Below are positions 342 to 19,921 of a stretch of DNA of 25,379 nt, piece by piece (positions within the stretch are counted from its first letter, which is position 1; every line of letters begins with the position of its first letter). Location of the stretch: positions 1 to 25,379 of the IMG/VR virus record IMGVR_UViG_3300025112_000169; one strand, 5' to 3'. The notes under the pieces are model-generated. The model had not been told where the DNA came from. It saw nothing but the letters and a program-made list of their open reading frames with translations, and ran no database searches. The DNA comes from a virus. Position numbers and translations under genes: made by a program.

Positions 342-575
342 TTAGTTTTTAAAGAAAAAGAATACAGAGCCTAGAATTGAAAATATAATAAATAGAAGAG
401 CGCCTGCCCCTTTGCCACGGTTCATGAAAGTTTTAAGTTCTTTAACATCGCTACCCATTTCATCAATCCTTTTGAATAATGTTTTCATACGGTCCGCACA
501 GATTTTCTCGTGATACGAGATCCGCAGATGTGCATCTGCTGTTACTTTTGCTTTTGTCCTACGAGTTTTTTTCAT
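342..575 (-). CDS. Small membrane protein, XhlA/holin-like lysis protein
   Basis: A 77-residue protein with a basic N-terminus (MKKTRRTKAK), a charged helical middle with heptad-like spacing (about residues 22-52, MKTLFKRIDEMGSDVKELK) and one C-terminal hydrophobic segment (about 57-75, GALLFIIFSILGSVFFFF) ending FKN. This coiled-coil-plus-terminal-anchor layout matches XhlA-type haemolysin/holin accessory proteins. Its position directly before the endolysin supports a role in membrane permeabilisation or lysis timing. Its ATG overlaps the TAA of the large gene upstream (TAATG), and an AGGA element sits close upstream. A spanin or another small anchor protein is the main alternative. No classical two-TM holin is visible next to it. 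Confidence 0.6.
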   Translation of the reverse strand: MKKTRRTKAKVTADAHLRISYHEKICADRMKTLFKRIDEMGSDVKELKTFMNRGKGAGALLFIIFSILGSVFFFFKN

Positions 576-3500
576 TAAGTCCTCCCCGCAATTACTTTTT
601 CGGTAGGAGATAGTAAAGCAGTCTCCGTCGGTGTCAAGTTAGTAATTGGATCTTTTTGTGCCATTTGTCCTTGATTTACAACAGGCATTGATGTTGGTGG
701 CAGGGGTGGTGCTTTCGTTTCATAAATAGTTTTAACATCTCCTTGTCCCGGTAACATATCTTTCATCTTATCCAAGATAGAACCTTCTTTAAATAAAAAT
801 TTATCTTTATCTATTATATAATCTTTATTTAATCTTTGCTTCTTCAGTCGTTTGATAATTCTTTTAATTCTTTTTTTAACTTTTTTATTTAATGGATTCT
901 CAATTCCTTTTCTCTCTGCCAAGTCTTTATATGCTTCTTTATATCCGTCACTAATCTCAAAAGGTTTAAATTTATTTTTCTTAATCATTTTATAAATATC
1001 CATTCTATTTCTAGCTTTGAATATGGCTTTGATATCTTTTTCTTTAAACTTTAATGATTTAGCAGCATCATAGTATCTTTTCATTTCATTAAACGCATCT
1101 AGTCTTTGGTGATTAGCCCAGATAAATTGTTCTATAATTTTATTATCATCGGTTACAGGATCTCCACTTAAGGTGCCTGCATAAATTAATTTTCTTTCAT
1201 CACTCTCTCTTCCTAAAAACTTTCCAATATTTATTTGCATAGATCTATAAATATCTAAGGGTGCTTTTCTCATACCAATTAATCCTAACAATTCATCAGT
1301 CATTTGATACTCAGTTCCTTTTAAAGTTTTACCAGTATAAGCATGATATAATCTTCTCATCTGAATTGCAGATCCAGGTGAATATAGTAACGTCAAATGT
1401 TTAAAGGTTTTCCATGCTTTATCTCCGGGTGCATCTTCTTCATTCCATATTCTAGTTCCTTTCCTAGTGACTCCCCCTCGTGCAAACACATCTAAAAATC
1501 CACCTATCCAAATTGATTCTGCTATAAAGGGCTCAACAAATCTAGCCAATCCTGCTGCCATACCCTTGACTGTTGCTGGAAGAACGGGATCATCTTTGTT
1601 TGTCTCTAATGAGGTAATGATAGATTGCAGTGGATTAGTTACAACGTCATAGAAAAATGCTCTACTAAAATCTATATATTTATATTCACCATCTTCATAC
1701 ACTGGTATGATTGTAGAATCTTTAGAGAACCAAGGTACAAATTCTTTAATAGCATACAATTGATCTTTGGTTATGCCATACATTGTCATACCACCCCATA
1801 CAGCTAGTGGTGGAATCGCTGCCATTGTAAATGCCCAACCAAATAATCTTTCATAACCCATACCAGAAGCTAGTTGTCCAAAGACAGGATGTTTAGCTTC
1901 TGCCTTAGCCGCCATAACAATGTTAGTATTCGTTCTTACTTGTTCTGCACTCCATGATACGAAGTTTCCAAGAGGTGATCTTCTAGCTGCCTGTACTATT
2001 TCACTAACGTAAGCATAGTTAGGCATGAAGTCTCTTATCTTTTTAGTTGCCATCTTCATTATTTCTAGGTCAGCAGGAATATCAGCTTGTTTAATTAAAC
2101 CTTTTTTTAATGCGGCTGCGTATGCGTCATGGAGTTTCTGATCTTCAATAAAAAAGTTTGCTATCTTCCAGATGTCATCCTCTGCAACATACAATTGTTG
2201 TGCAGCTTTTATAAAAGATTTAGTTCTTCTCCCCATCTTGCCCCAAATACTTTGTAACCAACCTATCTTTTGAGTATCTTCGATTAGTCCTATTACATCT
2301 CTGTAAATGGCACTTGAGTTAACCATCCCTTCGTCAAGAAGGAATCTATATAAAGCTTGGCCACCTTTTTTTAATTCTTCAGCGCTTACCTTGGAGCCTG
2401 CTGTATAATTAACTCCAGGTTTATTTCTCCATAAGAGTTGAGGTTGAATTGTATTCAATGATCTCCATAAAGCTTTACCAAACACAGCAGGATTAGTTAA
2501 AGCATAACGAACATTACCCAATGCTACCATTGTAACACCACCTGATGTAAAGTTTCTGGCGTGAGTAAAAGGACCACCCACTGTTTTACCCGCTTGAATT
2601 AATCCTTTAGGTGCCATGATGATTGCCTGGTAGTATATATTTTTAGTAATGCTACCTAAATTATTTAAAGCACCGTGGACCAAACCTTGATAAATTTTTT
2701 CTGTGGTAAACATTCCATTGATTGGGGGAGTATAAACTGCATCCCCTAATTTATTTGGAAGTTTTATACCACTACTCATTTCAATAATTTTTTCTCCAGT
2801 GCCGGCCCATCCCTTAGCGGCTGCATTGTAGCTTGGATAAACTATTGCTCTTTCACCCCGAGCAATTTGTTCTACACCTGCTTGTTTTATTACATTATAA
2901 AATCTATCTCTTCCGGAAATCTCTGCAAGATCAGTAGTTACATTTGCAATAACATTCATTGCATTTTTATAACTACCAAATAATTTTTGAAAAGCTAAGA
3001 GGTCAGACTCTTTTTGTATTAATCCTCCTAACTCATCAGGTACAAATCTTCCTCCTCCTGTAATATTTTTAGCTATTGATTTTGTAATTAATGCCTGCTC
3101 GGCTGCCATGCCTGCTGGAGTATATTTAAAAAAAGGCTGTCCTGTTGCAGGATCTAGCCTAACATTTCTGATGACTTGATCTACCTGTAGTCTAGCTGTT
3201 TCTTTAGATATTGATTTTCCCTGCGCTGTAGCATTCACTTGAAATATTTTTGCTACTTCATCTTTAATTTCTCTTGAGACAATGTAGCCGTCTACTGGAG
3301 ACAAACCATTGTCTTTAAAAATTTTATATTCTGTAGATAAAGTATCGCCTATTCTTTCATTCATAATTTTAACTAATCCTTTTAAACCAACCTCTGGATG
3401 TAAATTTCCACCTTTAGCAATGGTGTTTAAATATTGTCCCCAATATTGATGTATGTTTCTCATCTCCCCAACAATATTATCTATTTCATTTTTAGGGATT

Positions 3501-5014
3501 TTTAATTGCTCCATTGATTTATAGAAAGACTTTAAAGATCTCTCATCAAATCCTCTAACCACAACTTTGCCTTGGCTTACTGCAAACTTACCTGCATTAA
3601 TAACTTTAATAATAGCTTGAGAGATTCCATCGGTAAGACCCGTGGCACTTGATACTATCTGGCTGTCTCTAGATATTCTTTTAACAATGTCATCTATATT
3701 TTTTAAAAAATCTTGTGATAATAATTCAGCCGATTCTGTTTTACCTCTTAGTCTTTGCATCGCTTGGAATTGTTCTTCAGGAAAAGGACCTCTGCCTCTA
3801 AAAGGTTGGGATACAATTTTCTCTACCATCTTGTTAAACTTGGTAACGTTGGCTGCTCTTTTATAAACTCCGCTCACGATACTTTTACCTACTTTACCTA
3901 GACCCCAGATAGCAGGGACAATTGGAAAACCCATCTCACCTGAAAACTTTAATTTATTCCAGAGCATTCTTGTGGCTTCATCTTTAGATGTGCTTTTCTT
4001 TTTTCTATCTAAAGCTGTTATTTCTCCGGACTCAAAACCTAAGTCCACGGCTAGGTCTCCAAAGGTACCTATGTTTTCTGCATCATAGACCACTGAACCA
4101 GCCAGTCCTCCGCCTACGGCAATAGATATAAATTTTTGTTTACGAGATAAATTAGTAAATTTGTTAACATCTTTTAAACCTCTACCTAGATTAATATTTT
4201 TAGCTGTTCTTACATACTTCCCACTCTTAACTCCATCGTATGCTTTGTTAAATATTTTCAAAGCTTTGTCTGTAACTTTAACTCCGTGAGTACCCACTGC
4301 TTTCCAGCCACCATACATTTGAACTATGACTTCAGTCAGTTTACCTAATGCATTTTCCCGTGCTTTTTCTTCACTGTACTTCATTAGGTTTCCAAAATAA
4401 GTTTGTTCAAACCACCTGTCTAATTGAGCTACGGCACTTTGATTCACTGGTAAGTTTTCTTTATTAGCAAAATCTATAAGCATTGCTCCAAGATTCATAA
4501 AGCCGTAAGGAATTTTAATAGCTCCAGATATTATTCCATGTGTAATTGATTCTATTTGACCTGTTTCTCCTGCAAAGGGATCAATGGTACTTTTTGATTC
4601 TATGGGGCCAGTCGTTCCATCCAAAATATAAGATGCAAACTGAGGTTTAATTTTTTCGTCGTCCCCGTATTCTTCCTCTAATGTTTTAGATTTATCTGTC
4701 TTAAACATTTTACCCAATAGAGTATTATCCTGCCACTCGTTCCATTTTTTCCACGCTTCTGAATCTTCTTTCTCTTTAGCTTTAAACCATGCATCTAAAC
4801 CATATTTGTCAGCATACTTGGTTTCTCTAATAGCTTTATCCGCCATAGAAATGGCTTCTTTAATCCTGCTTTGTTTTCTAGCCTTAGCGTTTTGTTCTTC
4901 TAAAAGCTGATCATATGCTTCTTGAGCCGATATAACTTCTTTTACTTTCTTTTGTTCGTTTTCTTTTTCCTCATCGATGAGAGTTTGAGGATCAAATATT
5001 AATTTTGATGCCAT
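575..5014 (-). CDS. Giant internal virion / DNA-ejection-like protein (1479 aa)
   Basis: This is the largest gene in the window. In size, late position and location just before lysis genes it resembles large internal-core or ejection proteins of podoviruses (T7 gp16 is of comparable length). No enzymatic motif was recognised. The N-terminal 100 residues are highly charged and helical. Glycine-rich hydrophobic stretches follow (about 157-182, 296-312, 362-385), and the strongest membrane-like segment lies near residue 1057-1080 (AFTMAAIPPLAVWGGMTMYG). The tail is very Lys-rich (about 1380-1430) and then proline-rich, ending NLTPTETALLSPTEKVIAGRT. Start: ATG at 5014, eight bases after the previous stop, with an AGGAGG ribosome site. 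Several amphipathic segments suit membrane insertion during DNA delivery, but that is inferred. A polyvalent multidomain protein is the alternative. Confidence 0.55.
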   Translation of the reverse strand: MASKLIFDPQTLIDEEKENEQKKVKEVISAQEAYDQLLEEQNAKARKQSRIKEAISMADKAIRETKYADKYGLDAWFKAKEKEDSEAWKKWNEWQDNTLLGKMFKTDKSKTLEEEYGDDEKIKPQFASYILDGTTGPIESKSTIDPFAGETGQIESITHGIISGAIKIPYGFMNLGAMLIDFANKENLPVNQSAVAQLDRWFEQTYFGNLMKYSEEKARENALGKLTEVIVQMYGGWKAVGTHGVKVTDKALKIFNKAYDGVKSGKYVRTAKNINLGRGLKDVNKFTNLSRKQKFISIAVGGGLAGSVVYDAENIGTFGDLAVDLGFESGEITALDRKKKSTSKDEATRMLWNKLKFSGEMGFPIVPAIWGLGKVGKSIVSGVYKRAANVTKFNKMVEKIVSQPFRGRGPFPEEQFQAMQRLRGKTESAELLSQDFLKNIDDIVKRISRDSQIVSSATGLTDGISQAIIKVINAGKFAVSQGKVVVRGFDERSLKSFYKSMEQLKIPKNEIDNIVGEMRNIHQYWGQYLNTIAKGGNLHPEVGLKGLVKIMNERIGDTLSTEYKIFKDNGLSPVDGYIVSREIKDEVAKIFQVNATAQGKSISKETARLQVDQVIRNVRLDPATGQPFFKYTPAGMAAEQALITKSIAKNITGGGRFVPDELGGLIQKESDLLAFQKLFGSYKNAMNVIANVTTDLAEISGRDRFYNVIKQAGVEQIARGERAIVYPSYNAAAKGWAGTGEKIIEMSSGIKLPNKLGDAVYTPPINGMFTTEKIYQGLVHGALNNLGSITKNIYYQAIIMAPKGLIQAGKTVGGPFTHARNFTSGGVTMVALGNVRYALTNPAVFGKALWRSLNTIQPQLLWRNKPGVNYTAGSKVSAEELKKGGQALYRFLLDEGMVNSSAIYRDVIGLIEDTQKIGWLQSIWGKMGRRTKSFIKAAQQLYVAEDDIWKIANFFIEDQKLHDAYAAALKKGLIKQADIPADLEIMKMATKKIRDFMPNYAYVSEIVQAARRSPLGNFVSWSAEQVRTNTNIVMAAKAEAKHPVFGQLASGMGYERLFGWAFTMAAIPPLAVWGGMTMYGITKDQLYAIKEFVPWFSKDSTIIPVYEDGEYKYIDFSRAFFYDVVTNPLQSIITSLETNKDDPVLPATVKGMAAGLARFVEPFIAESIWIGGFLDVFARGGVTRKGTRIWNEEDAPGDKAWKTFKHLTLLYSPGSAIQMRRLYHAYTGKTLKGTEYQMTDELLGLIGMRKAPLDIYRSMQINIGKFLGRESDERKLIYAGTLSGDPVTDDNKIIEQFIWANHQRLDAFNEMKRYYDAAKSLKFKEKDIKAIFKARNRMDIYKMIKKNKFKPFEISDGYKEAYKDLAERKGIENPLNKKVKKRIKRIIKRLKKQRLNKDYIIDKDKFLFKEGSILDKMKDMLPGQGDVKTIYETKAPPLPPTSMPVVNQGQMAQKDPITNLTPTETALLSPTEKVIAGRT

Positions 5015-10901: not shown

Positions 10902-11236
10902 TATGTTGTTACCTCTTTTTTAATGTTTAGATAGCTGACACCAAAATCAAATGAGTCTGCGCTACCTGCTTTAATTGTAAGGGTTGTACCCCCTACTACT
11001 ATTAACGGTTGGGTTAATAATTCCACTGTAGTGTTTGCCGTTAAAGCTGCTGTTTTAATAGCTGTAAAAGCATTATTAGTAACGGTTACACTGGGTGTTC
11101 CCGCAGAAGTAACGAGTATAGATTTAATAACATAGGTTTCACTAACTAAAGGATTACCTGCACCAAACGGATTAAGTTCCGCATCGGTAGTATCATTATC
11201 TATTCCTACAAAGTCGTATTGGTTTACTACTGCCAT
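10901..11236 (-). CDS. Small beta-rich virion-like protein (111 aa)
   Basis: Begins MAVVNQYDFVGIDNDTTDAE. It is rich in Thr, Val, Ala and Ser in alternating patterns (SVTVTNNAFTAIKTAALTAN, about 49-68; PLIVVGGTTLTIKAG, about 77-91), with no Cys or obvious catalytic residues. This profile suits a small beta-sandwich virion or tail component. It is translationally coupled by TAATG overlaps to the 54-codon gene before it and the 56-codon gene after it, directly downstream of the nozzle-like gene. No specific family was recognised. Confidence 0.5.
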   Translation of the reverse strand: MAVVNQYDFVGIDNDTTDAELNPFGAGNPLVSETYVIKSILVTSAGTPSVTVTNNAFTAIKTAALTANTTVELLTQPLIVVGGTTLTIKAGSADSFDFGVSYLNIKKEVTT

Positions 11237-11400
11237 TATTCCATAAAGAAGCTTCTAGCTTCTATCTCCTGTTTTAATTCTTCTTGAAAGGTAGTGTTTA
11301 ATTTCTCCAGAACAGCATCTAAATCTCTTACTAAAGATTGTGCCACGTCTACTTCATATTCATTGCTTGCTCTAGTTAATGATTGTACTATCTTAGCCAT
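11236..11400 (-). CDS. Small coiled-coil-like late protein (54 aa)
   Basis: A 54-codon frame running from the ATG at 11400 to TAA at 11236, with 1-nt overlaps (TAATG) to genes on both sides. The protein MAKIVQSLTRASNEYEVDVA QSLVRDLDAVLEKLNTTF.. has regular hydrophobic spacing through residues 18-50, consistent with one long helix or coiled coil, and ends EARSFFME. I think I recognise it as a small conserved protein of marine phages; its function is unknown to me. A structural or chaperone role beside the tail-nozzle gene is plausible. Confidence 0.7.
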   Translation of the reverse strand: MAKIVQSLTRASNEYEVDVAQSLVRDLDAVLEKLNTTFQEELKQEIEARSFFME

Positions 11401-13583
11401 TACCTTCTTCCTCCTGCATGTACATCTAACCTAAAAGTTCCCAGTTTCCAATTAGAATCTATTGCAGTGTTGGATATTTTTACTGCAACCGATCTGCCTC
11501 GTGCCCTGCACGATTGATAGTTAGTGGCTGAAGTAATAGTAAAAGGTCCTAGGGTAGAGCTTGCTGCGGTTTGATTAGGAAAATTTCTTAAGTCTAATTC
11601 AACGATTGTATTTCCAGATTGAGTTATAAAATCGGGTAAAAATCTGCTCACTCTCATTATAAATTCTCCATCTCCTCTAAAAGTAATTCCTTGTTTTTTG
11701 TCCTGAGTAATATCAAAATCTCCAGACAAAATATTGGCTGGAACAGCATAGGTAGTTCCACCCTTAACATAATTCACTCCTTTTTCATGTTCATAGTAAG
11801 TTGAAATTCCATCTGTATTTCCTACAGTATCACAGGTATCGGTCCCTGCATCATATGATGTAGCATGAGGTAAACCAAAGATAGCTGAATCTATCCAAGT
11901 ACTTCTTGGAAAAATTGAACTAGCGTTTGTAAACCAAATAGGTCTAGATGGGGTTGAATCTAAATAACTATAAATGACACATCTATTAACCACGTTAGAA
12001 TCAGAGGTTGGATAAAACCACATTACCTCTCCAAACAAGTTATTAATTCCACAATAAATAAATTGATTTGAAGTTGTATTGAGATCATCGTAAACATAGT
12101 CTTCTACTAGGCAATCCATCGATTCTAGTTTACCGGTAAATCTAAAGAAACCATTATCAGACATCCAGTACGCAGCACCATCTACTTCAACAGCTGCATT
12201 CTTTCCTATCAAACCACAGTTGGTTCCTACTTGTTCATAGGCGAAAGTAAAAGGTTGACCTACAAAACGCATGGTGAATAATGAGGTATCCGTCCATACA
12301 TAAAGTGCATTTCTTCCTAGTTTAGATCCCATGATCCGTGAGCCGGCAGCCAGTCTTTGTGTGCCAGCGCTATTGATTGCAGTAGGTGCCCAGTCAGTTA
12401 TATCCTCTTGAGAAGAGAATCTTAAAAACATATCATCTTGAGTACTTGTGTCTCCAATCGTGGTTTCAGTTCCAAATAAAACTAAGTGACGATCAGGAGT
12501 CGAGACTAACATATCTCTAGATGCTGTTGGTGCACCAGAAATAATTGTCGCTCTTGTAGTTGTAGCATTGGTTAAGTCTGAATCCCATTCAAAGACAGCT
12601 CCATTAAAAATTAAAGCTATAAGTGTAGATCCTAAATTGTCCAACGACCATAATCCTGGTTCAGCAACTTTATCAGTTGTAGCCGCAGCTTGACCCCATG
12701 CAGCATAGTCACTGTAATTAGTAACCGTTGCTCCATCAGAGTGAGCAGCTCTTGTTGTTCCTCGAGCAGCTCTACTTATTCCTGTTAGATCGCTTCCTGA
12801 AACTCCTGTATAAGAAATCTCTTCTGTGCCGACTTGAATATAATTTGTTCCTGTTGTTGGAAATCCTGTAACTGAATCTAAAGTAATGCTTGTTCCTGAT
12901 CCTCCAGTTCCATAAACATTGTCTCCTAAGGCTCCATCTAAAGTTGTTGTTTGAGGATTGGTTACGCTACCACCAAACTGGGATATACCCCATCCATAAA
13001 CTCCAACCTGTTCAGCTGGGCCTACTGGATAGTAAAATTTAACAGAAAGATCTCCATCAGTAGCGGTTGCGCTTGCAGTAGATCCCATTGTAATAGTAAC
13101 CGAGGTAGCGTCTACTACTTCAGTTATCATAAAACTTTTATTATCAAAATCAGAAGCAGAATAACCAGACCCTGTAGGAACGGTAACACTTTCAAGAAAT
13201 AAAATATCTCCTGCTGTCATTCCTGCGGTAGAGGATAAGGTAATTGTAAGAATAGCAGACCCACTAGTAGAAGCTAGTTTGTCGGTTAAGGCTCCGAAGT
13301 CAGTTTTAATTGGGTGAATGTCATAATACACCCCGCCAGAATATGCATATAAAATTCGATTGGTTCCAATGATGGCATATTTAATACCTTCTTTGTTAAC
13401 CATTTGATGAAGAGCCCGAGCTGATCCAGTTAAAGCTTTATCTCCTAACTGGGCCCATCCTCCTATTTTTTCAGGTGTGCCATATCTAAAGCGAACATTC
13501 TCGCCTCCTGTCCATTGTGCTTCAGCTCCTGTAGGGGTAATTTGTTTATTAAATCCTGGTAAAAAACCTATCTTTTGCAGCAT
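11400..13583 (-). CDS. Tail nozzle/hub-like protein, P22 gp10 / T7 gp12 role (727 aa)
   Basis: Starts MLQKIGFLPGFNKQITPTGA, followed by WTGGENVRFRYGTPEKIGGW (24-43), an N-terminus I associate with large tail-tube/nozzle proteins of short-tailed marine phages. The remainder is beta-rich with regular Trp/Gly motifs typical of propeller-like folds (SLDNLGSTLIALIFNGAVFE, then a long run through about 650). Two inserted beta domains are apparent: about 101-185, and about 226-289 with VGTEEISYTG...GISRAARGTTRAAHSDGATV, a module common in phage structural proteins. No peptidase or lyase motif was seen. Its own promoter candidate and a hairpin precede the start at 13583. The nozzle role is inferred from length, N-terminus and the two adaptor-like genes upstream. 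Confidence 0.6.
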   Translation of the reverse strand: MLQKIGFLPGFNKQITPTGAEAQWTGGENVRFRYGTPEKIGGWAQLGDKALTGSARALHQMVNKEGIKYAIIGTNRILYAYSGGVYYDIHPIKTDFGALTDKLASTSGSAILTITLSSTAGMTAGDILFLESVTVPTGSGYSASDFDNKSFMITEVVDATSVTITMGSTASATATDGDLSVKFYYPVGPAEQVGVYGWGISQFGGSVTNPQTTTLDGALGDNVYGTGGSGTSITLDSVTGFPTTGTNYIQVGTEEISYTGVSGSDLTGISRAARGTTRAAHSDGATVTNYSDYAAWGQAAATTDKVAEPGLWSLDNLGSTLIALIFNGAVFEWDSDLTNATTTRATIISGAPTASRDMLVSTPDRHLVLFGTETTIGDTSTQDDMFLRFSSQEDITDWAPTAINSAGTQRLAAGSRIMGSKLGRNALYVWTDTSLFTMRFVGQPFTFAYEQVGTNCGLIGKNAAVEVDGAAYWMSDNGFFRFTGKLESMDCLVEDYVYDDLNTTSNQFIYCGINNLFGEVMWFYPTSDSNVVNRCVIYSYLDSTPSRPIWFTNASSIFPRSTWIDSAIFGLPHATSYDAGTDTCDTVGNTDGISTYYEHEKGVNYVKGGTTYAVPANILSGDFDITQDKKQGITFRGDGEFIMRVSRFLPDFITQSGNTIVELDLRNFPNQTAASSTLGPFTITSATNYQSCRARGRSVAVKISNTAIDSNWKLGTFRLDVHAGGRR

Positions 13584-13587
13584 AAAA

Positions 13588-13607
13588 ATCCTAATTTATT
13601 TTAGGAT
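13588..13607 (-). promoter_or_regulatory. Hairpin over the ribosome site of the 727-codon gene
   Basis: Perfect 7-bp inverted repeat ATCCTAA-AATAAA-TTAGGAT followed by TTTTTATG, where ATG is the start of the nozzle-like gene. The right arm contains the AGGA ribosome site. In read-through RNA it could act as a weak terminator or mask the ribosome site. It is too short and AT-rich to be certain. Confidence 0.45.
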
Positions 13608-13609
13608 AT

Positions 13610-13638
13610 ACTATATTTACACCATATACAACGGTTAA
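13610..13638 (-). promoter_or_regulatory. Candidate sigma70-type promoter for the 727-codon gene
   Basis: Minus-strand TTAACC (13638-13633), a 17-base spacer and TATAGT (13615-13610) match the -35/-10 pattern at 4/6 and 5/6 positions. The -35 overlaps the stop codon of the last oxygenase gene. The expected transcription start near 13603 would fall inside the hairpin at 13588-13607, removing one arm. Confidence 0.45.
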
Positions 13639-14228
13639 GAAATATTGAAATTAACAGCTACACTAATTCTTTCGCCCTTGCTTTTAAAACTATTTACAAA
13701 ATGAGCTAGCCCAGATGGAAAGATAAAGAAATCACCTACTTCGGGTGTAAATGTCTTCATATTAATAAAATGTTTACTGGTTTGAGCATTTATGAAAAAG
13801 TTTATATCACCAGGTTTGGCTCCACTTGTTTCAAAATCATCTCTTTCTTTTTTTAAACCTTTGGGCATTTTTAAATAAAAAACAGCAGAAAACTCACAGA
13901 GAGTATGGGTATGAATTGGATTTGATTCACCAGCCTTCATGTAATTTACCCAAGCAGTATCTAGAGCCAGATCATTGCAGGGCTCTTTATACCAGTGTTT
14001 ATAGGCGTGTTTATATAAGATTAAATATGGTTTTAAAAGTTTCTCTAATTTTTTTTTATCTTTTATTAAATATTCTTTTTTAATTAATCCAGCTAGATTT
14101 TTATTCCATTTTTCTTTTTCATCTGTTTCACATAAACTTAAAAAAACTTTTAAATCTTCTTTCATTAAAGAAGATTGAAATAATAAAGGTCCAGTATAGT
14201 AAAAATTATATGTAAATTCTTTTTTCAT
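13635..14228 (-). CDS. 2OG-Fe(II) dioxygenase, PF13759-like (197 aa)
   Basis: A putative iron- and 2-oxoglutarate-dependent oxygenase of the '2OG-FeII_Oxy_5' type. Visible elements: TAWVNYMKAGESNPIHTHTL (91-110) with the H106-x-H108 pair that takes the place of HxD in this family; SAVFYLKMPKG (114-124); and GDFFIFPSGLAHFVNSF (165-181) with the distal ligand H176. These are followed by the 2OG-binding R187 in GERISVAVNFN, the family's typical ending. The N-terminal half is a Lys-rich helical region. Its ATG follows the upstream stop directly (TAAATG) with no ribosome site, implying coupled translation. It is the last member of the oxygenase array. The substrate is unknown. Confidence 0.8.
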   Translation of the reverse strand: MKKEFTYNFYYTGPLLFQSSLMKEDLKVFLSLCETDEKEKWNKNLAGLIKKEYLIKDKKKLEKLLKPYLILYKHAYKHWYKEPCNDLALDTAWVNYMKAGESNPIHTHTLCEFSAVFYLKMPKGLKKERDDFETSGAKPGDINFFINAQTSKHFINMKTFTPEVGDFFIFPSGLAHFVNSFKSKGERISVAVNFNIS

Positions 14229-14798
14229 TTATTTAAAATTAGGTCCTTTTATAAATAAAATTAAATTTCTTCTTTCACCTTTAGTCACAGGGGTTACCTT
14301 ATGTCTTGAATGTGGTTTAAAAAAAATCATGGAACCTCTTTCTTTCCACTCAGGTACTTTAATATCATTAGTCATTTGTAAGATCAAGTCTCCTCCTTCA
14401 AATGGTTTTTCAGAAAGATTTATGTTTAACGTAAGTTTAATATCTACATAAGGGTTGTTATCCATATCTACATGCCAATCATAACCTGCTTTTTCATCTC
14501 CTGAATATATATTATATAAACAATTGTCTTCGTCTCCATAAGGCCATAAATCAAAATTGTATGCTCTAAGGTTTGCATCATAAGCTTTGTCTACTAATTT
14601 AGAAATATATTCTTTTAATTGTCTATAAGGAATTACATAAGTTTTTACGTTTTTCTTTGGTCGACCATCGGGATGGCGTGCCTGTTGGTTTTTTTCTTCT
14701 TCGTGAGAATAATTTGACATTATTAACTTGTTTAAACGTTTTATTTCTTTCAAACTTAAAACATTTTTCCACAACCAATAAGGAGGATGATTAGCCAT
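14229..14798 (-). CDS. 2OG-Fe(II) dioxygenase, P4H/PiuC-like fold (189 aa)
   Basis: The double-stranded beta-helix core is readable. AGYDWHVDMD (104-113) gives the first two iron ligands, H109 and D111. KLTLNINLSEKPFEGGDLIL (121-140) is the usual beta-strand block with the EGG turn. GSMIFFKPHSRHKVTPVTKG (155-174) gives the distal H166, and R176/R177 supplies the 2-oxoglutarate-binding arginine. The N-terminal 100 residues are helical with a Lys/Gln-rich loop (34-51). The gene starts 2 bases after the preceding stop without a clear ribosome site. The complete set of ligands argues for an active enzyme. The target could be a protein, peptide or sugar and is not indicated by sequence. Confidence 0.85.
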   Translation of the reverse strand: MANHPPYWLWKNVLSLKEIKRLNKLIMSNYSHEEEKNQQARHPDGRPKKNVKTYVIPYRQLKEYISKLVDKAYDANLRAYNFDLWPYGDEDNCLYNIYSGDEKAGYDWHVDMDNNPYVDIKLTLNINLSEKPFEGGDLILQMTNDIKVPEWKERGSMIFFKPHSRHKVTPVTKGERRNLILFIKGPNFK

Positions 14799-14800
14799 TT

Positions 14801-15451
14801 TTAATTTCTTTTACAAAAAAAATCAGGTAGACCTAAATGAGGTCTCCCATCAAACAATATTGATTTTTTATTTTTAATGTTATAGTGAAGAAAAACTTGA
14901 GAGCATTCTTCACCTTTAAGTTCTTCTCGCCAATGTTCTAAGACAGATCCTGAAAAAATGAGCATATCACCTGGCTTAAGGGTGACTTTAATTCCTTTTG
15001 TGGTGCCTGGTACATAACCTTTACCTGGAACTATCCTTCCTTTTTTAGGGTCTGGTTCTAAATAAATGTCCCAAGGATCTCCTCCTAAACACACCGTAGT
15101 AGAAACTTCACAAGCAAAACGATCCTTATGGCGATGAAGAATGTCTCCTTTTTTATAATTACGAGCATAAGAATAGGTAGGAGTTAGTTTTAAACCTGTT
15201 TCTTTTTCCATTAATGGTTGAAGTTTTAATAATAAAGTTTCCATAGCAATATCTGCATAGTGAGCGTAGGTATTAGGAATTTGAGTATCGGTCCATACAC
15301 CAAAATAATTAGTAAATGGTGATATAGATTTAGTATCAAACAAAGTCTTTGCAACTTGTTTTTTCATTGAAAAATAATTATTGAGAAAAAAACAAAGGTC
15401 TTTTGATATTGCTTTGCGTACAACGGTAAAGTCCGGATATTTAAATTTCAT
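14801..15451 (-). CDS. 2OG-Fe(II) dioxygenase, phage type (216 aa)
   Basis: The core motifs are ARNYKKGDILHRHKDRFACE (96-115), containing H108-x-D110 (a second His at 106), then VCLGGDPWDIYLEPD (120-134), and KPGDMLIFSGSVLEHWREEL (159-178) with the distal H173. The motif order and the 'Y-x-x-GDxLxxHxD' approach are those of oxygenases I recognise in marine phage genomes. The expected 2OG-binding Arg/Lys near CSQVFLHYN (183-191) is not obvious, so the co-substrate contact may differ. An unusually good ribosome site (AGGGAGGA) precedes the ATG at 15451, which overlaps the previous stop. Third active-looking member from the downstream end of the array. Confidence 0.8.
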   Translation of the reverse strand: MKFKYPDFTVVRKAISKDLCFFLNNYFSMKKQVAKTLFDTKSISPFTNYFGVWTDTQIPNTYAHYADIAMETLLLKLQPLMEKETGLKLTPTYSYARNYKKGDILHRHKDRFACEVSTTVCLGGDPWDIYLEPDPKKGRIVPGKGYVPGTTKGIKVTLKPGDMLIFSGSVLEHWREELKGEECSQVFLHYNIKNKKSILFDGRPHLGLPDFFCKRN

Positions 15452-16044
15452 TAGGTTCCTCCCTCTAGTTCAAAGAAAAAAAATGATACAATAATATATT
15501 TAAGATTACTTATTGGTGGTGCTCCCCCATGAGTATGAGTATAACCAGCTGGAAAAAATACTACTTTTCCTACTTCTGGTTTAACTTTTATGTCCTGATA
15601 CGGCAATTCTGTTTCACCGCCATCTCTAACATCATTGAGATAAAATACAGATGCTAATATACGACCTTGATCTCCTATAAAATTCTTTTGTGCCTCATAA
15701 TGCCAGTCTCTACTACTATAATGTTCTCCAATTTCAACTCTTCTCAACTTCCAAAATTTAGCTTTATGATATGGTGAATGAGTTAAAATTGGAAATTCTT
15801 CAACATATTTGTCATATGCTTTTTGTTGTGCTTTTATTATAGTAGAAAGTTCTTCTTGAAATTGATTGCGATGTTCTTGCAAGAATATATCATGTGTAAC
15901 TCTACCTCTGTCATCCACATACTCCTCTTTAACCTTTTCAAATTTATCAATAAGGTGTGCACAAAAATCTTTAGATAAAACATTTTTATATGCTCTAACA
16001 AAATTCTCATTTGGTTTAACTGCTAAATCAAAACTTTTTATCAT
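15451..16044 (-). CDS. 2OG-Fe(II) dioxygenase with HxE ligand pair, P4H-like (197 aa)
   Basis: Resembles prolyl-4-hydroxylase-like phage oxygenases. EHYSSRDWHYEAQKNF (107-122) carries H115-x-E117 where most relatives have HxD. VFYLNDVRDGGETELPYQDI (133-152) is the typical EGGET-type strand/turn. GKVVFFPAGYTHTHGGAPPI (159-178) gives the distal His (H170, with H172 adjacent), and K182 in NLKYIIVSFF takes the position of the 2OG-binding basic residue. Glu as the acidic iron ligand is rarer but known in the superfamily. The ATG follows directly on the upstream stop (TAAATG). Likely active; the substrate is unknown. Confidence 0.8.
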   Translation of the reverse strand: MIKSFDLAVKPNENFVRAYKNVLSKDFCAHLIDKFEKVKEEYVDDRGRVTHDIFLQEHRNQFQEELSTIIKAQQKAYDKYVEEFPILTHSPYHKAKFWKLRRVEIGEHYSSRDWHYEAQKNFIGDQGRILASVFYLNDVRDGGETELPYQDIKVKPEVGKVVFFPAGYTHTHGGAPPISNLKYIIVSFFFFELEGGT

Positions 16045-16683
16045 TTATTTAAAAGGTTGTCCTAAGTTCCATATAACTAAAGAATATCTTGTGCCGCTTG
16101 TTACAGGACATACTCTATGCCACATAAATGAAGGAAATACCACCAAGGAACCTTTGGGTGCTATTTCTTTACACTTTCTAATGTTTGGTTCTTTATCTGG
16201 GTCCCGGTTTCTAAAATCAAATTCTAGTCCTCCGCCTTCATATTCACTTGGATCTGATAAATGAAGTACTATTGTTAATTTTCTAATTTTTCCCATAGGT
16301 AGGCCTTTTCCCTCGTATGGTTTTTCCGAACTATCAGTGTGCCAACCATAATATTGACCTTTTCCATATTTTGTAAATTGACAGTGTTCACTTTGATCCC
16401 ATTCAAAGTTCCAACCTGCATTTTCATTAGCTCTATGAACATAGGGAAGAAGTTCGTTATAAATCCATTGCTCACTCATCCATACAACATTGGAATCTCT
16501 CTTCTTCTTTATAGTTTTAAGTTCGTCCTTTGTTATAGGATTTTTTGTTAAATCTCTATTTAAGTTTAAGTCTCCAGTAAGAGCTTGTTCCTCTTTTCTT
16601 AATTTTCCATATCTAAGAATGTCATCACATATTCTATGTGGAACTGCACTTGAAAAATACCAATATTTATTATCTAGATTCAT
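16045..16683 (-). CDS. 2OG-Fe(II) dioxygenase, PiuC/PKHD-like (212 aa)
   Basis: The best-conserved member of the array. QFTKYGKGQYYGWHTDSSEK (102-121) contains H115-x-D117. RKLTIVLHLSDPSEYEGGGL (134-153) matches the strand block of PiuC/PKHD-type hydroxylases. GSLVVFPSFMWHRVCPVTSG (178-197) gives H189, and TRYSLVIWNLGQPF places R199 for 2-oxoglutarate. All catalytic positions are present. Its ATG overlaps the stop of the upstream gene (ATGA), and the frame ends immediately before the next start. Relatives hydroxylate protein residues or small molecules. The late-operon context suggests a virion or cell-surface protein substrate, which is inference. Confidence 0.9.
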   Translation of the reverse strand: MNLDNKYWYFSSAVPHRICDDILRYGKLRKEEQALTGDLNLNRDLTKNPITKDELKTIKKKRDSNVVWMSEQWIYNELLPYVHRANENAGWNFEWDQSEHCQFTKYGKGQYYGWHTDSSEKPYEGKGLPMGKIRKLTIVLHLSDPSEYEGGGLEFDFRNRDPDKEPNIRKCKEIAPKGSLVVFPSFMWHRVCPVTSGTRYSLVIWNLGQPFK

Positions 16684-17231
16684 GACACCATTACGTACGT
16701 AGTTGTTAAAAATATATTAGTTTGAAAGGAAATATTTTCATTAATAAAAAATTTTAAATATGAAGGAAATAATAAAAAATGGTTATTCTTTATTTTAAAT
16801 AAAGATAATTTTTCAATTCCTCTTTTATCCTTAGTTTCTATAATAACGGATGAATCTTTATCAACATCAACTCCATAAATCATAACATAATCAGGAGAGT
16901 CTTTTATATTTACCCGATCAATTGAATTTCTAAAAAAAGATTGTTGTTTTGGGTCAAACACATTTCCAAAAGATAGTCGGGGACTTATTGTAATTCTATG
17001 ATCCAGATATATATTTTCACTTATGTACTCTCTTAATAAACTTAAAGTTTTTGAAGTAGGAACTTCATAATCAGAATATGCATAATGATAAGGATTATCA
17101 CTTATAGTCTTGTGATGTAATTTAGAATTTAAAATTTCTGATTTAATTTGATATCTATCAATTTCATAATGTTTAGGCATTTTAACTTCGCCTTCAAACA
17201 AACAAGTTTCTGATAATATCTTTTTATTCAT
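16680..17231 (-). CDS. Unknown protein, possible ligand-less oxygenase relative (183 aa)
   Basis: First gene of the six-gene array, with no confident family. The C-terminal half resembles the second half of the PF13759-like fold: PDYVMIYGVDVDKDSSVIIE (113-132), then NNHFLLFPSYLKFFINENIS (149-168), ending in alternating hydrophobic residues (NIFLTTTYVMV). Compared with FPSGLAH of the gene at 13635-14228, the distal iron His is replaced by F161. No HxD or HxH pair is visible and the Arg is absent. It could be a non-catalytic paralogue, a partner subunit or an unrelated beta-barrel. The start at 17231 has AAAGG just upstream and follows an 81-base gap with a palindrome; the end overlaps the next gene by 4 nt. 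Confidence 0.45.
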   Translation of the reverse strand: MNKKILSETCLFEGEVKMPKHYEIDRYQIKSEILNSKLHHKTISDNPYHYAYSDYEVPTSKTLSLLREYISENIYLDHRITISPRLSFGNVFDPKQQSFFRNSIDRVNIKDSPDYVMIYGVDVDKDSSVIIETKDKRGIEKLSLFKIKNNHFLLFPSYLKFFINENISFQTNIFLTTTYVMVS

Positions 17232-17291
17232 ACCTTTATACTTTCTATCCTATATATTTTTTACATAAAATTCAATATAAACTAATCATAT

Positions 17292-17305
17292 TTGATCTAG
17301 ATCAA
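17292..17305. promoter_or_regulatory. Perfect 14-bp palindrome TTGATCTAGATCAA, FNR/Anr-box-like
   Basis: In the 81-base gap before the oxygenase array (17232-17312). It fits TTGAT-N4-ATCAA, the binding pattern of FNR/Anr-type oxygen-responsive regulators, and is centred about 68 bases upstream of the 17231 start. No strong -10/-35 pair accompanies it; a weak TATGTA lies near 17267-17262. It may be an operator for another factor, or chance in AT-rich DNA. The rest of the gap shows nothing else convincing. Confidence 0.4.
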
Positions 17306-17312
17306 TTTCGAA

Positions 17313-17705
17313 CTAATAAGGATTTTGAGTTAGTTTATAATTTTGATTTTCCTCGTCCCAAATATAGTATTTTCCCTGATCTTTTTCTTCTTGAGTAAGT
17401 TCCGGAGCATCTCCTGTTGGAGATACCCATCTTTTTTCTGCAATATTTTTAGTCCAATTTGCAAAGGGCATTCGTGGCCAAAAAATTTGATTTGTAGGAT
17501 CCCATTCCGATCCCATTAACATAGGATATTTTCCTTGACCATTATCCCAAATCCATTGATTAGCTGGCCAACCAGTAATATTTTCTAAAAAAGCTTGACC
17601 TAGGGATTCTTGTTTAACCCCGTCGCCGTCTAATAATTGTTTATCATCTACCTTTAATACAGATAATACTACATTAGCTTCGTTTAGTTTTCCAAAGGAT
17701 GCCAT
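17313..17705 (-). CDS. Small fibre-associated late protein (130 aa)
   Basis: Starts MASFGKLNEANVVLSVLKVD and contains many Trp residues in short motifs: ITGWPANQWIWDNGQG (43-58), RMPFANWTKN and KYYIWDEENQNYKL near the end. The layout ('MAxFxxLNxxNxVxxVxxVD...PF.W......W..P....Y.WDE') matches small proteins commonly found beside fibre genes in cyanophages and pelagiphages. Their role is not established to my knowledge; candidates are fibre chaperone or attachment factor. It starts 2 bases after the glycine-rich adhesin-like gene without a ribosome site, so translation is probably coupled to it. Confidence 0.55.
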   Translation of the reverse strand: MASFGKLNEANVVLSVLKVDDKQLLDGDGVKQESLGQAFLENITGWPANQWIWDNGQGKYPMLMGSEWDPTNQIFWPRMPFANWTKNIAEKRWVSPTGDAPELTQEEKDQGKYYIWDEENQNYKLTQNPY

Positions 17706-17707
17706 GT

Positions 17708-18634
17708 TTATTTATATTTATACCTTATTATAACAACGCCTGAACCACCGGCATCAGAGACATTTGAAACGTCTCCTTTGCTTCCTCCACCGCTGTTTGC
17801 CGCACCAAAATCTGCCGGCGTGGGAGCAGGATTATAAGGATTACCTCCTCCTCCTCCAACTCCTCCGCTTGTAGGAGATTGACTAGGAGCACCACCTCCA
17901 GCATAATATTGATATGCTGGGTCTGGACCTGGAATTCCAGATGTTGCACTAATTTGTGTTGCAGCGCCCGCTCCACCAGATCCACCAGGGTGTCCAGCTC
18001 CAGCTACTGTAGCTCCGCCACCGCCCGCAGTATTTGTTCCGGGGCCTCCGTCAGTTCCTTCAGCAGGTGTATAACTTCCAGCGTTTCCGCTTCCAGCAGA
18101 TGAAGAACCAGGTTCTCCTCCTCCGCCACCGCCGGATCCTCCTGGTTTTCCAGAAGTTGACGATCGGCCTCCACCGCCTCCTCCGCCTGAGGATGAGATA
18201 GTAGAAAAAGTAGATACGCTTCCTGGTTCACCTGCACAGCCGCAAGCAGGTGGGCTGTTGGTTTGACCGCCTCCCGCGCCAACTGTTATTGGGTAACTTG
18301 TTTCTGTAATTGGAATTGAAGTTGCACTAGCTAGAGGACTTGCAGTGTACGTACCAGAAATTGCGTCAACATGTGATTCTCTAAAACCTCCAGCTCCAGC
18401 GCCTGCACCCCATGAATATCCTCCAGCTCCCCCGCCAGCAACGACAACATAATCTACTGCTTTTGCGGGTGCGGGTAAACTAGCGTCAATAGAATCAACT
18501 ACAAAAGAATCAGTAGATGTAAAAGTGTGAACTCTGTAATCACCAATTTCTTCGATTGTACCGCCAGTAGCTTCAATTAATACTTTTACAGCTCCACCAC
18601 CTCCAAATCCTAAAACTTGATAGCCAAAAGACAT
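17708..18634 (-). CDS. Glycine-rich adhesin-like tail protein (308 aa)
   Basis: The N-terminal domain (about 1-60, MSFGYQVLGFGGGGAVKVLI) is beta-like and includes YRVHTFTSTDSFVVD (28-42). It is followed by a long low-complexity glycine-rich region (about 66-295) with poly-Gly runs and interspersed Ser, Pro and Ala. The C-terminus closes with GGSGVVIIRYKYK, an ending typical of phage and bacterial glycine-rich surface domains. Such regions form polyglycine-type sandwiches in adhesins such as S16 gp38, where variable loops bind receptors. Its position between the tail-fibre-like gene and the small fibre-associated gene supports a receptor-binding role. An AGGAG ribosome site lies upstream of the ATG at 18634. 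The extreme composition creates several long spurious frames on both strands. Confidence 0.65.
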   Translation of the reverse strand: MSFGYQVLGFGGGGAVKVLIEATGGTIEEIGDYRVHTFTSTDSFVVDSIDASLPAPAKAVDYVVVAGGGAGGYSWGAGAGAGGFRESHVDAISGTYTASPLASATSIPITETSYPITVGAGGGQTNSPPACGCAGEPGSVSTFSTISSSGGGGGGGRSSTSGKPGGSGGGGGGEPGSSSAGSGNAGSYTPAEGTDGGPGTNTAGGGGATVAGAGHPGGSGGAGAATQISATSGIPGPDPAYQYYAGGGAPSQSPTSGGVGGGGGNPYNPAPTPADFGAANSGGGSKGDVSNVSDAGGSGVVIIRYKYK

Positions 18635-18646
18635 ATTCTATTTCTC

Positions 18647-19861
18647 CTATGCGTCGTTAGCAGCGTCAGTAGTATAGAATAATTTAATTCCTAATACTCT
18701 TGCTTCACCTGTAAAGGTATCGCTACCGTCGGCTGCATCTCTGTAAAGTTGAAAAAACGTTTGATCATCGTCAGCTGGAGAGCCGGCAATTGTCATTGCA
18801 GAACTAACTGCAGTCATTTGCACATCTTCTACAGTTCCGATTCCAGCGTCTGTGACTTCTACAGCTGTTCCAAAAGCTACATCGGCTGTGTCGCCTTCAC
18901 TAACGCTAACACCTTGAAGACCAAAAATACAGTTATCTGTATTCGTAGTGCTTGGACTCCAAAAAACTTGATAGGTTACTGTTCCTAAATTCCATGATTT
19001 TGGCATTGCAATAGCAAACTGTGCATATTGTGCCGTACTCGCATCAAAATCTAAAACCTTTAATTCAGGTCTAGTTGCTGTTGTTTCAACCGATGCCGCG
19101 TCAGCGGGATTAGTTGTAGGAAGATAAAATGCATTTGCAGGTATCCACATAGTTTCTGTGCCTGCAACTTTGACTGCTGCTGTTCCTGATTTAAGAACAC
19201 CAGATCCTTTGGGATTTAAATTTATATCAACATTAGCTTCATCACCTGTTGAAGATAAAGTAGGTCCAGCACCTGATGCTGCATTAGCTATTGTAAATTC
19301 ATTTACCGCAGATCCTGTAGCTGTTATAAGAGCTAATTCAAGTCCATTGGTATCTAAAATAGAAGTACCAATTTTAGGACTTGTTAAAGTTTTGTTTGTT
19401 AAAGTTTCTGTTCCTGTAAGAGTTACAGTACCCATTCCAACGTCAACAATATTTGGATTCGTTGCATCATCCGCAGCTGCATAAACAATTTTAGTTCCTT
19501 TATCAGTAGTTCCCCATGTAATACTGGAACCAGAACCTGAAACATATTTAAAATTAACAGTGTAAGCACCTGATGAGCCATTTGTTATAATATAAAAAGT
19601 TTGAACATCTAGAGGAATTGTTACTGTAGTGTTTTCACCGATTGATCCTGTGAATTTTATAATTCTGTGTGCAAGAGTCGCTCCTGTTGATCCATCAGAA
19701 ACAGCTAATGTAGTAGGCGTTGATGCTATAGATTGCTCTACATAACCACCCGCATATTGTTCACCGATTTGTAAATTTACATTAGTTTTTGTTCCCCATG
19801 TACCAGCGTTTTCGCCAGTGGCCATTAATTCTACGCCGAGAGGGGTATAAGTTGATGCCAT
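18647..19861 (-). CDS. Tail fibre-like protein (404 aa)
   Basis: Starts MASTYTPLGVELMATGENAG then TWGTKTNVNLQIGEQ, a signature of marine phage tail fibres. A middle fibrous segment includes VTLTGTETLTNKTLTSPKIG (about 145-165) and INLNPKGSGVLKSG (about 212-226), motifs frequent in trimeric fibre shafts. The C-terminal part (about 240-404) is a beta-rich domain ending in FFQLYRDAADGSDTFTGEAR (about 369-388) and VLGIKLFYTT, probably the receptor-proximal or trimerisation head. It has an AGGAG ribosome site and a near-consensus promoter upstream, and the adhesin-like gene follows 12 bases after its stop. Exact attachment to the particle cannot be read from sequence. Confidence 0.7.
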   Translation of the reverse strand: MASTYTPLGVELMATGENAGTWGTKTNVNLQIGEQYAGGYVEQSIASTPTTLAVSDGSTGATLAHRIIKFTGSIGENTTVTIPLDVQTFYIITNGSSGAYTVNFKYVSGSGSSITWGTTDKGTKIVYAAADDATNPNIVDVGMGTVTLTGTETLTNKTLTSPKIGTSILDTNGLELALITATGSAVNEFTIANAASGAGPTLSSTGDEANVDINLNPKGSGVLKSGTAAVKVAGTETMWIPANAFYLPTTNPADAASVETTATRPELKVLDFDASTAQYAQFAIAMPKSWNLGTVTYQVFWSPSTTNTDNCIFGLQGVSVSEGDTADVAFGTAVEVTDAGIGTVEDVQMTAVSSAMTIAGSPADDDQTFFQLYRDAADGSDTFTGEARVLGIKLFYTTDAANDA

Positions 19862-19892
19862 AATTTTTCTCCTAATTGATACTTAGTTCGTT

Positions 19893-19921
19893 TTTATATT
19901 TTGTTTTGTTCATATTGTCAA
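19893..19921 (-). promoter_or_regulatory. Near-consensus sigma70 promoter before the tail fibre gene
   Basis: Minus-strand TTGACA (19921-19916), exactly 17 bases of spacer, and TATAAA (19898-19893): 6/6 and 5/6 matches to the bacterial housekeeping consensus, inside the 66-base gap between the repeat-protein and fibre genes. The expected start is near 19886, leaving a 25-base leader with an AGGAG ribosome site before the ATG at 19861. Confidence 0.75.

Follow-up and report, generated by a model that had tools for sequence, protein, structure and literature searches.

The 25,379-base virus record IMGVR_UViG_3300025112_000169, analysed at its full length and called the window below, carries between positions 13635 and 17231 an array of six genes, A to F, of which five (A-E) are predicted to encode apparently active 2-oxoglutarate (2OG)-Fe(II) oxygenases. 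As judged by comparison with related loci, the array tracks its neighbouring tail tip genes and not the equally adjacent nozzle gene, and this linkage is the new part of the analysis. We lean, with barely better than even confidence, towards reading the array as a tailoring cassette, late and exchangeable, whose enzymes would modify the receptor-binding apparatus of the virion, the presumed substrate. This reading is favoured because the array lies next to fibre genes in unrelated genome layouts, is exchanged together with the tip, is accompanied by tailoring-type enzymes, and contains a non-catalytic member tied to the small tip-associated protein t130. Such arrays are known already; what is new is the functional re-reading, together with the re-reading of two annotation labels.

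An original prediction, made from the DNA letters, had described six open reading frames (ORFs) in this region, five of them with ordered iron-ligand motifs. The six ORFs were confirmed, all on the minus strand and tightly packed, with stop-start overlaps of 1-4 nucleotides or gaps of 0-2 nucleotides. Profile searches, which had been proposed as a check, placed four of the products above the Pfam gathering cut-off: gene A (13635-14228) as PF13759 (E 8.5e-19), and genes B (14229-14798), D (15451-16044) and E (16045-16683) as PF13640 (E 9.9e-10, 6.2e-9 and 8e-19, respectively). Genes C (14801-15451) and F (16680-17231) had no Pfam match and were placed by structure; gene C represents a third sequence family, so that the predicted minimum of two families was right. 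The ligand motifs were indeed found in order in all five, namely H106xH108...H176 in A, H109xD111...H166 in B, H108xD110...H173 in C, H115xE117...H170 in D, and H115xD117...H189 in E, and they are conserved among the homologues of A, B, C and E. In non-redundant homologue sets, residues H106, H108, H176 and R187 of gene A are conserved at 97-100% (66 homologues), H109, D111, H166 and R176 of gene B are invariant (6 homologues), and H115, D117 and H189 of gene E are invariant with R199 at 99% (88 homologues); for gene D, just two close non-redundant homologues were available for comparison. It is to be noted that gene A and its PF13759-type homologues have an all-histidine HxH...H motif plus a conserved arginine, unlike the usual HxD/E...H. 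Gene E, a core array member, has its nearest solved relatives among the PiuC/PKHD hydroxylases (3dkq, E 1.7e-6; PiuC, E 2.3e-5). The ratio of nonsynonymous to synonymous substitution rates (dN/dS) of genes A, B, C, E and F against the related loci L092 and L093 was 0.13-0.30 where dS could be estimated; at the sequence level, purifying selection acts on these five genes. Because four independent Pfam matches lie above cut-off and the array is conserved in relatives, the oxygenase motif matches are not due to chance.

Gene C is labelled 'ferrochelatase' in PHROG 2954 and in its GenBank relatives. Its AlphaFold2 model has a predicted local distance difference test score (pLDDT) of 94.4 and forms a double-stranded beta-helix oxygenase fold across nearly the whole length, with matches to prolyl-4-hydroxylase 4iw3 (E 3.3e-8), SnoN (Z 17.4; root-mean-square deviation (rmsd) 2.9, 188 aligned) and PiuC (Z 16.7). 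Residues H108, D110, H173 and R175 are invariant across 49 homologues. Given the confident model and the invariant ligands, gene C is, as modelled, a 2OG-oxygenase fold with an intact HxD...H motif. A profile of gene C run earlier against PDB sequences had returned weak Tet-like matches only (E of at least 0.19) and was superseded by the fold search. As regards ferrochelatase, gene C matched PHROG families so named and no family at all in Pfam up to E 1 or in NCBIfam up to 0.1, and the fold of the confident model was that of the oxygenase beta-helix and not that of a ferrochelatase; NCBIfam searches of genes C, D, F, t130 and the neighbouring glycine-rich protein likewise returned no match. 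The model thus speaks for 'ferrochelatase' being a wrong label for gene C and its relatives. In the oxygenase-gene runs of cyanophages and pelagiphages, the gene C profile picks up 'ferrochelatase'-annotated proteins, and oxygenase profiles pick up proteins that carry the annotation 'DNA endonuclease' or 'endonuclease V', one of which matches PF13640 above cut-off. For several array genes, the label 'DNA endonuclease V' looks wrong as well. H-x-D/E...H-like motifs were seen in proteins labelled 'DNA endonuclease' or 'DNA endonuclease V' at L174:6618-7633, L179:6618-7608, L176:7514-8026 and L084:7313-7795.

The sixth gene, F, had been predicted to be related to the others but to lack the ligands, and both parts of this claim were borne out. 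Its AlphaFold2 model (pLDDT 92) is again a double-stranded beta-helix, matching the PF13759-type structures 2rg4 (Z 15.9, rmsd 3.4, 164 aligned) and 3bvc (Z 15.5) and, in addition, prolyl hydroxylases. Among 40 homologues there was no conserved histidine column that could supply iron ligands, D114 and Y119 being the only invariant residues. On the strength of the model, gene F is a conserved pseudo-oxygenase, degenerate and nearest in kind to the PF13759 type, and its dN/dS of 0.19-0.26 against L092 and L093 indicates that it is under selection.

In the order of transcription on the minus strand, the tail and fibre genes are followed by the glycine-rich protein, t130, the array as F-E-D-C-B-A (from 17231 to 13635), and last the nozzle-like gene. 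Upstream, the exchanged block is bordered by a fibre-like structural gene (18647-19861, minus strand; phrog_31104, of unknown function, E 3.3e-45). Within the block, the glycine-rich tip/adhesin-like protein glyR (17708-18634, minus strand; PF21722, E 9.9e-17) precedes t130 (17313-17705, minus strand), a short tryptophan-rich protein of 130 residues directly upstream of the array that belongs to phrog_7759, the 'MAHFAKL' family. The downstream border is a nozzle-like virion structural protein (11400-13583, minus strand; phrog_3287, E 1.4e-94). The array therefore does sit in a structural block, with tip/adhesin genes on one side and the nozzle on the other, as had been predicted.

The exchange of this block is best seen in two relatives. 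In L091, the eight-gene block from glyR to A has 88-97% DNA identity to the window, and the upstream fibre gene has 73%; the nozzle is 13% aligned, the L091 contig stopping within that gene, of which 123 residues are present and 63% identical. Synonymous divergence (dS) is 0.05-0.27 within the block versus 1.38 in the nozzle fragment. In L028, the nozzle protein is 92% identical and the upstream genes are similar, and yet zero array genes are common at 70% identity. Over 29 loci, array similarity rose with that of t130 (a partial rank correlation of 0.35, at a permutation p of at most 0.001), whereas its partial rank correlation with nozzle similarity was -0.13, though the nozzle also adjoins the array. 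Pairs of loci with the same nozzle and different tips shared 3% of their array genes, against 67% for pairs with different nozzles and the same tip; these counts draw on every locus and on pairs that are not independent of one another. The proposed link of the array to virion adhesins is thus supported as probable, the array being exchanged with the tip genes.

Conservation of the slot that holds the array was counted on nozzle-recruited loci only, loci recruited with C or F being biased towards array genes. When the window is included, 24 such loci span the slot, and 23 of them hold at least three oxygenase-fold genes (3-8, median 5); one holds none. The co-occurrence with fibre genes is thus conserved, and the contrary possibility, an array absent or scattered in relatives, was not borne out. 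The largest number in one slot, 11, was found in L020, outside this set. Common gene orders in relatives follow the pattern glyR-t130-F-E-(A)-C. The 663 oxygenase-fold proteins collected fall into 109 sequence clusters, with few core types (C, E, A-like and F) and a long rare tail; with this diversity, simple tandem duplication was set aside, in agreement with the original prediction. Runs of oxygenase genes beside tail fibre or structural genes occur also in S-SM1, S-RSM4, P-RSM4, Sf-CH11, pelagiphage Mosig and HTVC008M, the last with five in a row.

Interleaved with the oxygenases in the slot of relatives are genes for tryptophan halogenase (PF04820), sulfotransferase (PF13469/PF00685), carbamoyltransferase (PF02543/PF16861) and methyltransferases. 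One related phage has in its slot a sulfotransferase fused to an Asp/Asn beta-hydroxylase domain (PF05118; L025:898-2259), and an adenosine 5'-phosphosulfate (APS)-kinase-like gene is found in L079 with a homologue in L069, sulfotransferase being present in both. By its sequence families, this mix of companion genes resembles a tailoring-enzyme set. Heme oxygenase or ferredoxin-dependent bilin reductase genes lie in the same slot at L123:5737-6375, L124:4162-4734 and, in Mosig, L176:9835-11071.

Of all the neighbours, t130 is the closest genomic partner of the array and a candidate partner or substrate. An oxygenase-fold gene lies immediately downstream, on the same strand, for 88 of the 105 family members with a downstream neighbour, although many of these loci had been recruited by array genes. 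Among nozzle-recruited loci, gene F is present in 11 of the 16 whose tip is of the t130 type, and in none of the 20 whose tip is of the more distant 'MAHFA' type. The family alignment has near-invariant tryptophan and proline columns. Members of the t130/'MAHFAKL' family were seen in SAR11 podoviruses, myoviruses and one autographivirus, in cyanophages and in roseophages.

As regards the wider setting, the nozzle-like protein is 45% identical to that of 023Pt_psg01 and 39% to that of Pelagibacter phage HTVC023P, which by this protein places the virus near the HTVC023P-type podoviruses; megablast of the window against phage records gave zero matches. A promoter and terminator scan of 11000-19900 returned counts close to the shuffled expectation (35 versus 31.9 and 8 versus 5.0) and was uninformative on transcription units. 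Near the end of the structural block, at 575-5014, lies a gene for a 1479-residue protein without a PHROG match at E 0.1.

The proposed explanation may be put as follows. The cassette would consist of the glycine-rich protein, t130 and F-E-D-C-B-A, the six array genes forming the enzyme half of an exchangeable host-recognition unit. The five Fe(II)/2OG oxygenases would be made together with the structural proteins, to judge from gene position. Most likely they would oxidise (hydroxylate) amino-acid side chains of the phage's own tip or adhesin proteins before or during assembly, the nearest candidate substrates being the glycine-rich protein and t130. Gene F, which retains the fold without the iron site, would probably play a non-catalytic part, say as a subunit that docks or chaperones t130. 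In related phages, the resulting hydroxyls, or the side chains, could be modified further by the sulfotransferase, carbamoyltransferase, methyltransferase and halogenase of the slot. A swap of the cassette would then alter the tip protein and its chemistry together, and host range might change as a result. As to the late-acting modification pathway of the original prediction, the oxygenase array, its placement in the structural block, the co-occurrence with fibre genes and the probable adhesin link have stood, and the virion-protein substrate is carried forward as inferred.

Several points weigh against this explanation. No modified virion protein has been observed so far. HTVC025P, CRP-207 and Bellamy carry t130-family genes without an adjacent annotated oxygenase, so t130 can occur independently of the enzymes. 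Taken by themselves, the variable (non-core) array members follow the tip weakly (0.09, p 0.11, over the nozzle-recruited loci), and crossovers in the conserved flanks would move tip and array together without any functional tie. Lastly, gene C homologues in the cyanobacteria Brasilonema and Rhizonema adjoin nonribosomal peptide synthetase (NRPS)/polyketide synthase (PKS) or NRPS-like genes. Since these bacterial homologues have such neighbours, some members of the gene C family probably act on small molecules; the neighbourhood suggests natural-product tailoring, and fits oxidative tailoring rather than heme synthesis. Loci in which NRPS/PKS or NRPS-like reductase genes stand beside a gene C homologue are L201:24-11982 and L199:3985-8952.

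The strongest rival, itself rated as unlikely, is that the enzymes modify the host receptor or surface glycans late in infection, stopping re-adsorption to debris or superinfection. It predicts the same coupling of tip and array, via a tip that recognises that receptor. Sulfo-, carbamoyl- and methyltransferases are frequent glycan decorators, and their genes occur in the slot of relatives; HTVC023P and HTVC027P, moreover, have glycosyltransferase genes further downstream. However, Pfam and PHROG profiles identified no glycan-specific enzyme in the array of the window, and the nearest folds include the protein hydroxylases P4H, PHD2 and PiuC, although likeness of fold does not fix the substrate. 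According to the next-strongest rival, also judged improbable, the slot, bounded by conserved fibre and nozzle genes, is a hot spot of recombination in which metabolic oxygenases are swapped incidentally with the tip. Flanking homology would account for the swapping of whole blocks, heme oxygenase and bilin reductase are also in the slot, and roles in 2OG modulation and DNA repair have been proposed for cyanophages (Sullivan et al. 2010, PMC3037559). Against such hitch-hiking, the position next to the distal fibre genes is found alike in podoviruses and myoviruses of the pelagiphages and in cyanophages, whose genome layouts are otherwise different, and as many as 11 diverged members in a slot, along with a conserved dead F, would be unexpected if the only purpose were to consume 2OG.

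It is very unlikely that the array serves to produce or tailor a small molecule or a peptide, with t130, for example, as a precursor-like peptide. Such a role would agree with the NRPS/PKS neighbours of gene C homologues in Brasilonema and Rhizonema, with the mix of tailoring enzymes in the slot and with the fold matches to SnoN, EvdO1 and BesD; however, no NRPS/PKS or precursor-processing gene was found among the slot genes examined, and some phages have t130-family genes with no annotated oxygenase beside them. Modification of phage DNA by the array enzymes would be hardly credible. Although some phage DNA hypermodification involves 2OG enzymes and carbamoyltransferases, the array sits in a structural block, no window gene reached a TET/JBP-type Pfam family, and the companions include halogenase and sulfotransferase, enzymes for which we know of no role on DNA.

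The tailoring-cassette reading may be compared with what has been published. In the same phage group, Wittmers et al. 2022 described eight non-orthologous 2OG genes, often close together and beside 'ferrochelatases', and treated them as metabolic (PMC9599517). The HTVC023P-type pelagiphage sets of that study resemble the present array in their clustered non-orthologous 2OG genes beside a 'ferrochelatase' gene, and in the window, as in HTVC023P and 023Pt_psg01, HTVC023P-type structural genes flank the clustered genes with 2OG or 'ferrochelatase' labels, in a similar gene order. The difference is that those authors saw metabolic partners of a heme enzyme, whereas here the 'ferrochelatase' is modelled as a 2OG-oxygenase fold; beyond their account are also the conserved dead member identified here and the array travelling with tip genes. 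The T4-like cyanophages S-SM1, S-RSM4 and P-RSM4 have runs of the same superfamily beside tail fibre genes, including ones with 'ferrochelatase' and 'DNA endonuclease V' labels, and some of these clusters have halogenase and carbamoyltransferase neighbours; they differ in phage family and genome layout, and in the function proposed for them, Sullivan et al. 2010 having suggested effects of cyanophage 2OG oxygenases on 2OG/nitrogen signalling and DNA repair (PMC3037559). S-SCSM1 carries 24 such genes, none of which is named among the virion proteins in the available part of its description (PMC9602691). The hypervariable metaviromic islands of marine phages that Mizuno et al. 2014 assigned to host recognition include genes for Fe(II)-dependent oxygenases, in favour of the reading proposed here; in the accessible portion of that paper there is no array, linkage test or mechanism (PMC3909814). 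The PKHD/P4H hydroxylases (PiuC, Pseudomonas P4H and PHD2) share the fold and the HxD/E...H motif with the array enzymes, but identity in the structural alignments is 5-15%, and the fold does not yield the substrate. Oxygenase gp73 of HTVC027P appears, without timing, in the available part of a transcriptome account (PMC12753301), and for this reason late expression of the array is deduced from gene position. A literature search for hydroxylated phage tail fibres found none, most subscription papers lying outside its coverage.

Few unexplained genes recur as often in abundant ocean phages as those for 2OG-Fe(II) oxygenases, which are usually classed as auxiliary metabolic genes acting on the nitrogen or 2OG levels of the host; the 'ferrochelatase' label has itself entered a published inference (PMC9599517). 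The linkage evidence points instead to the attachment apparatus of the virion, a proposal that is directly testable by virion mass spectrometry. More tentatively, and with a likelihood that we put well below even, marine phages may carry a modular, multi-chemistry protein-tailoring island (hydroxylation here, and in relatives also halogenation, sulfation, carbamoylation and methylation) that chemically diversifies the tail tip and passes between phages as one cassette. If so, host range would rest not on adhesin sequence alone but also on post-translational chemistry.

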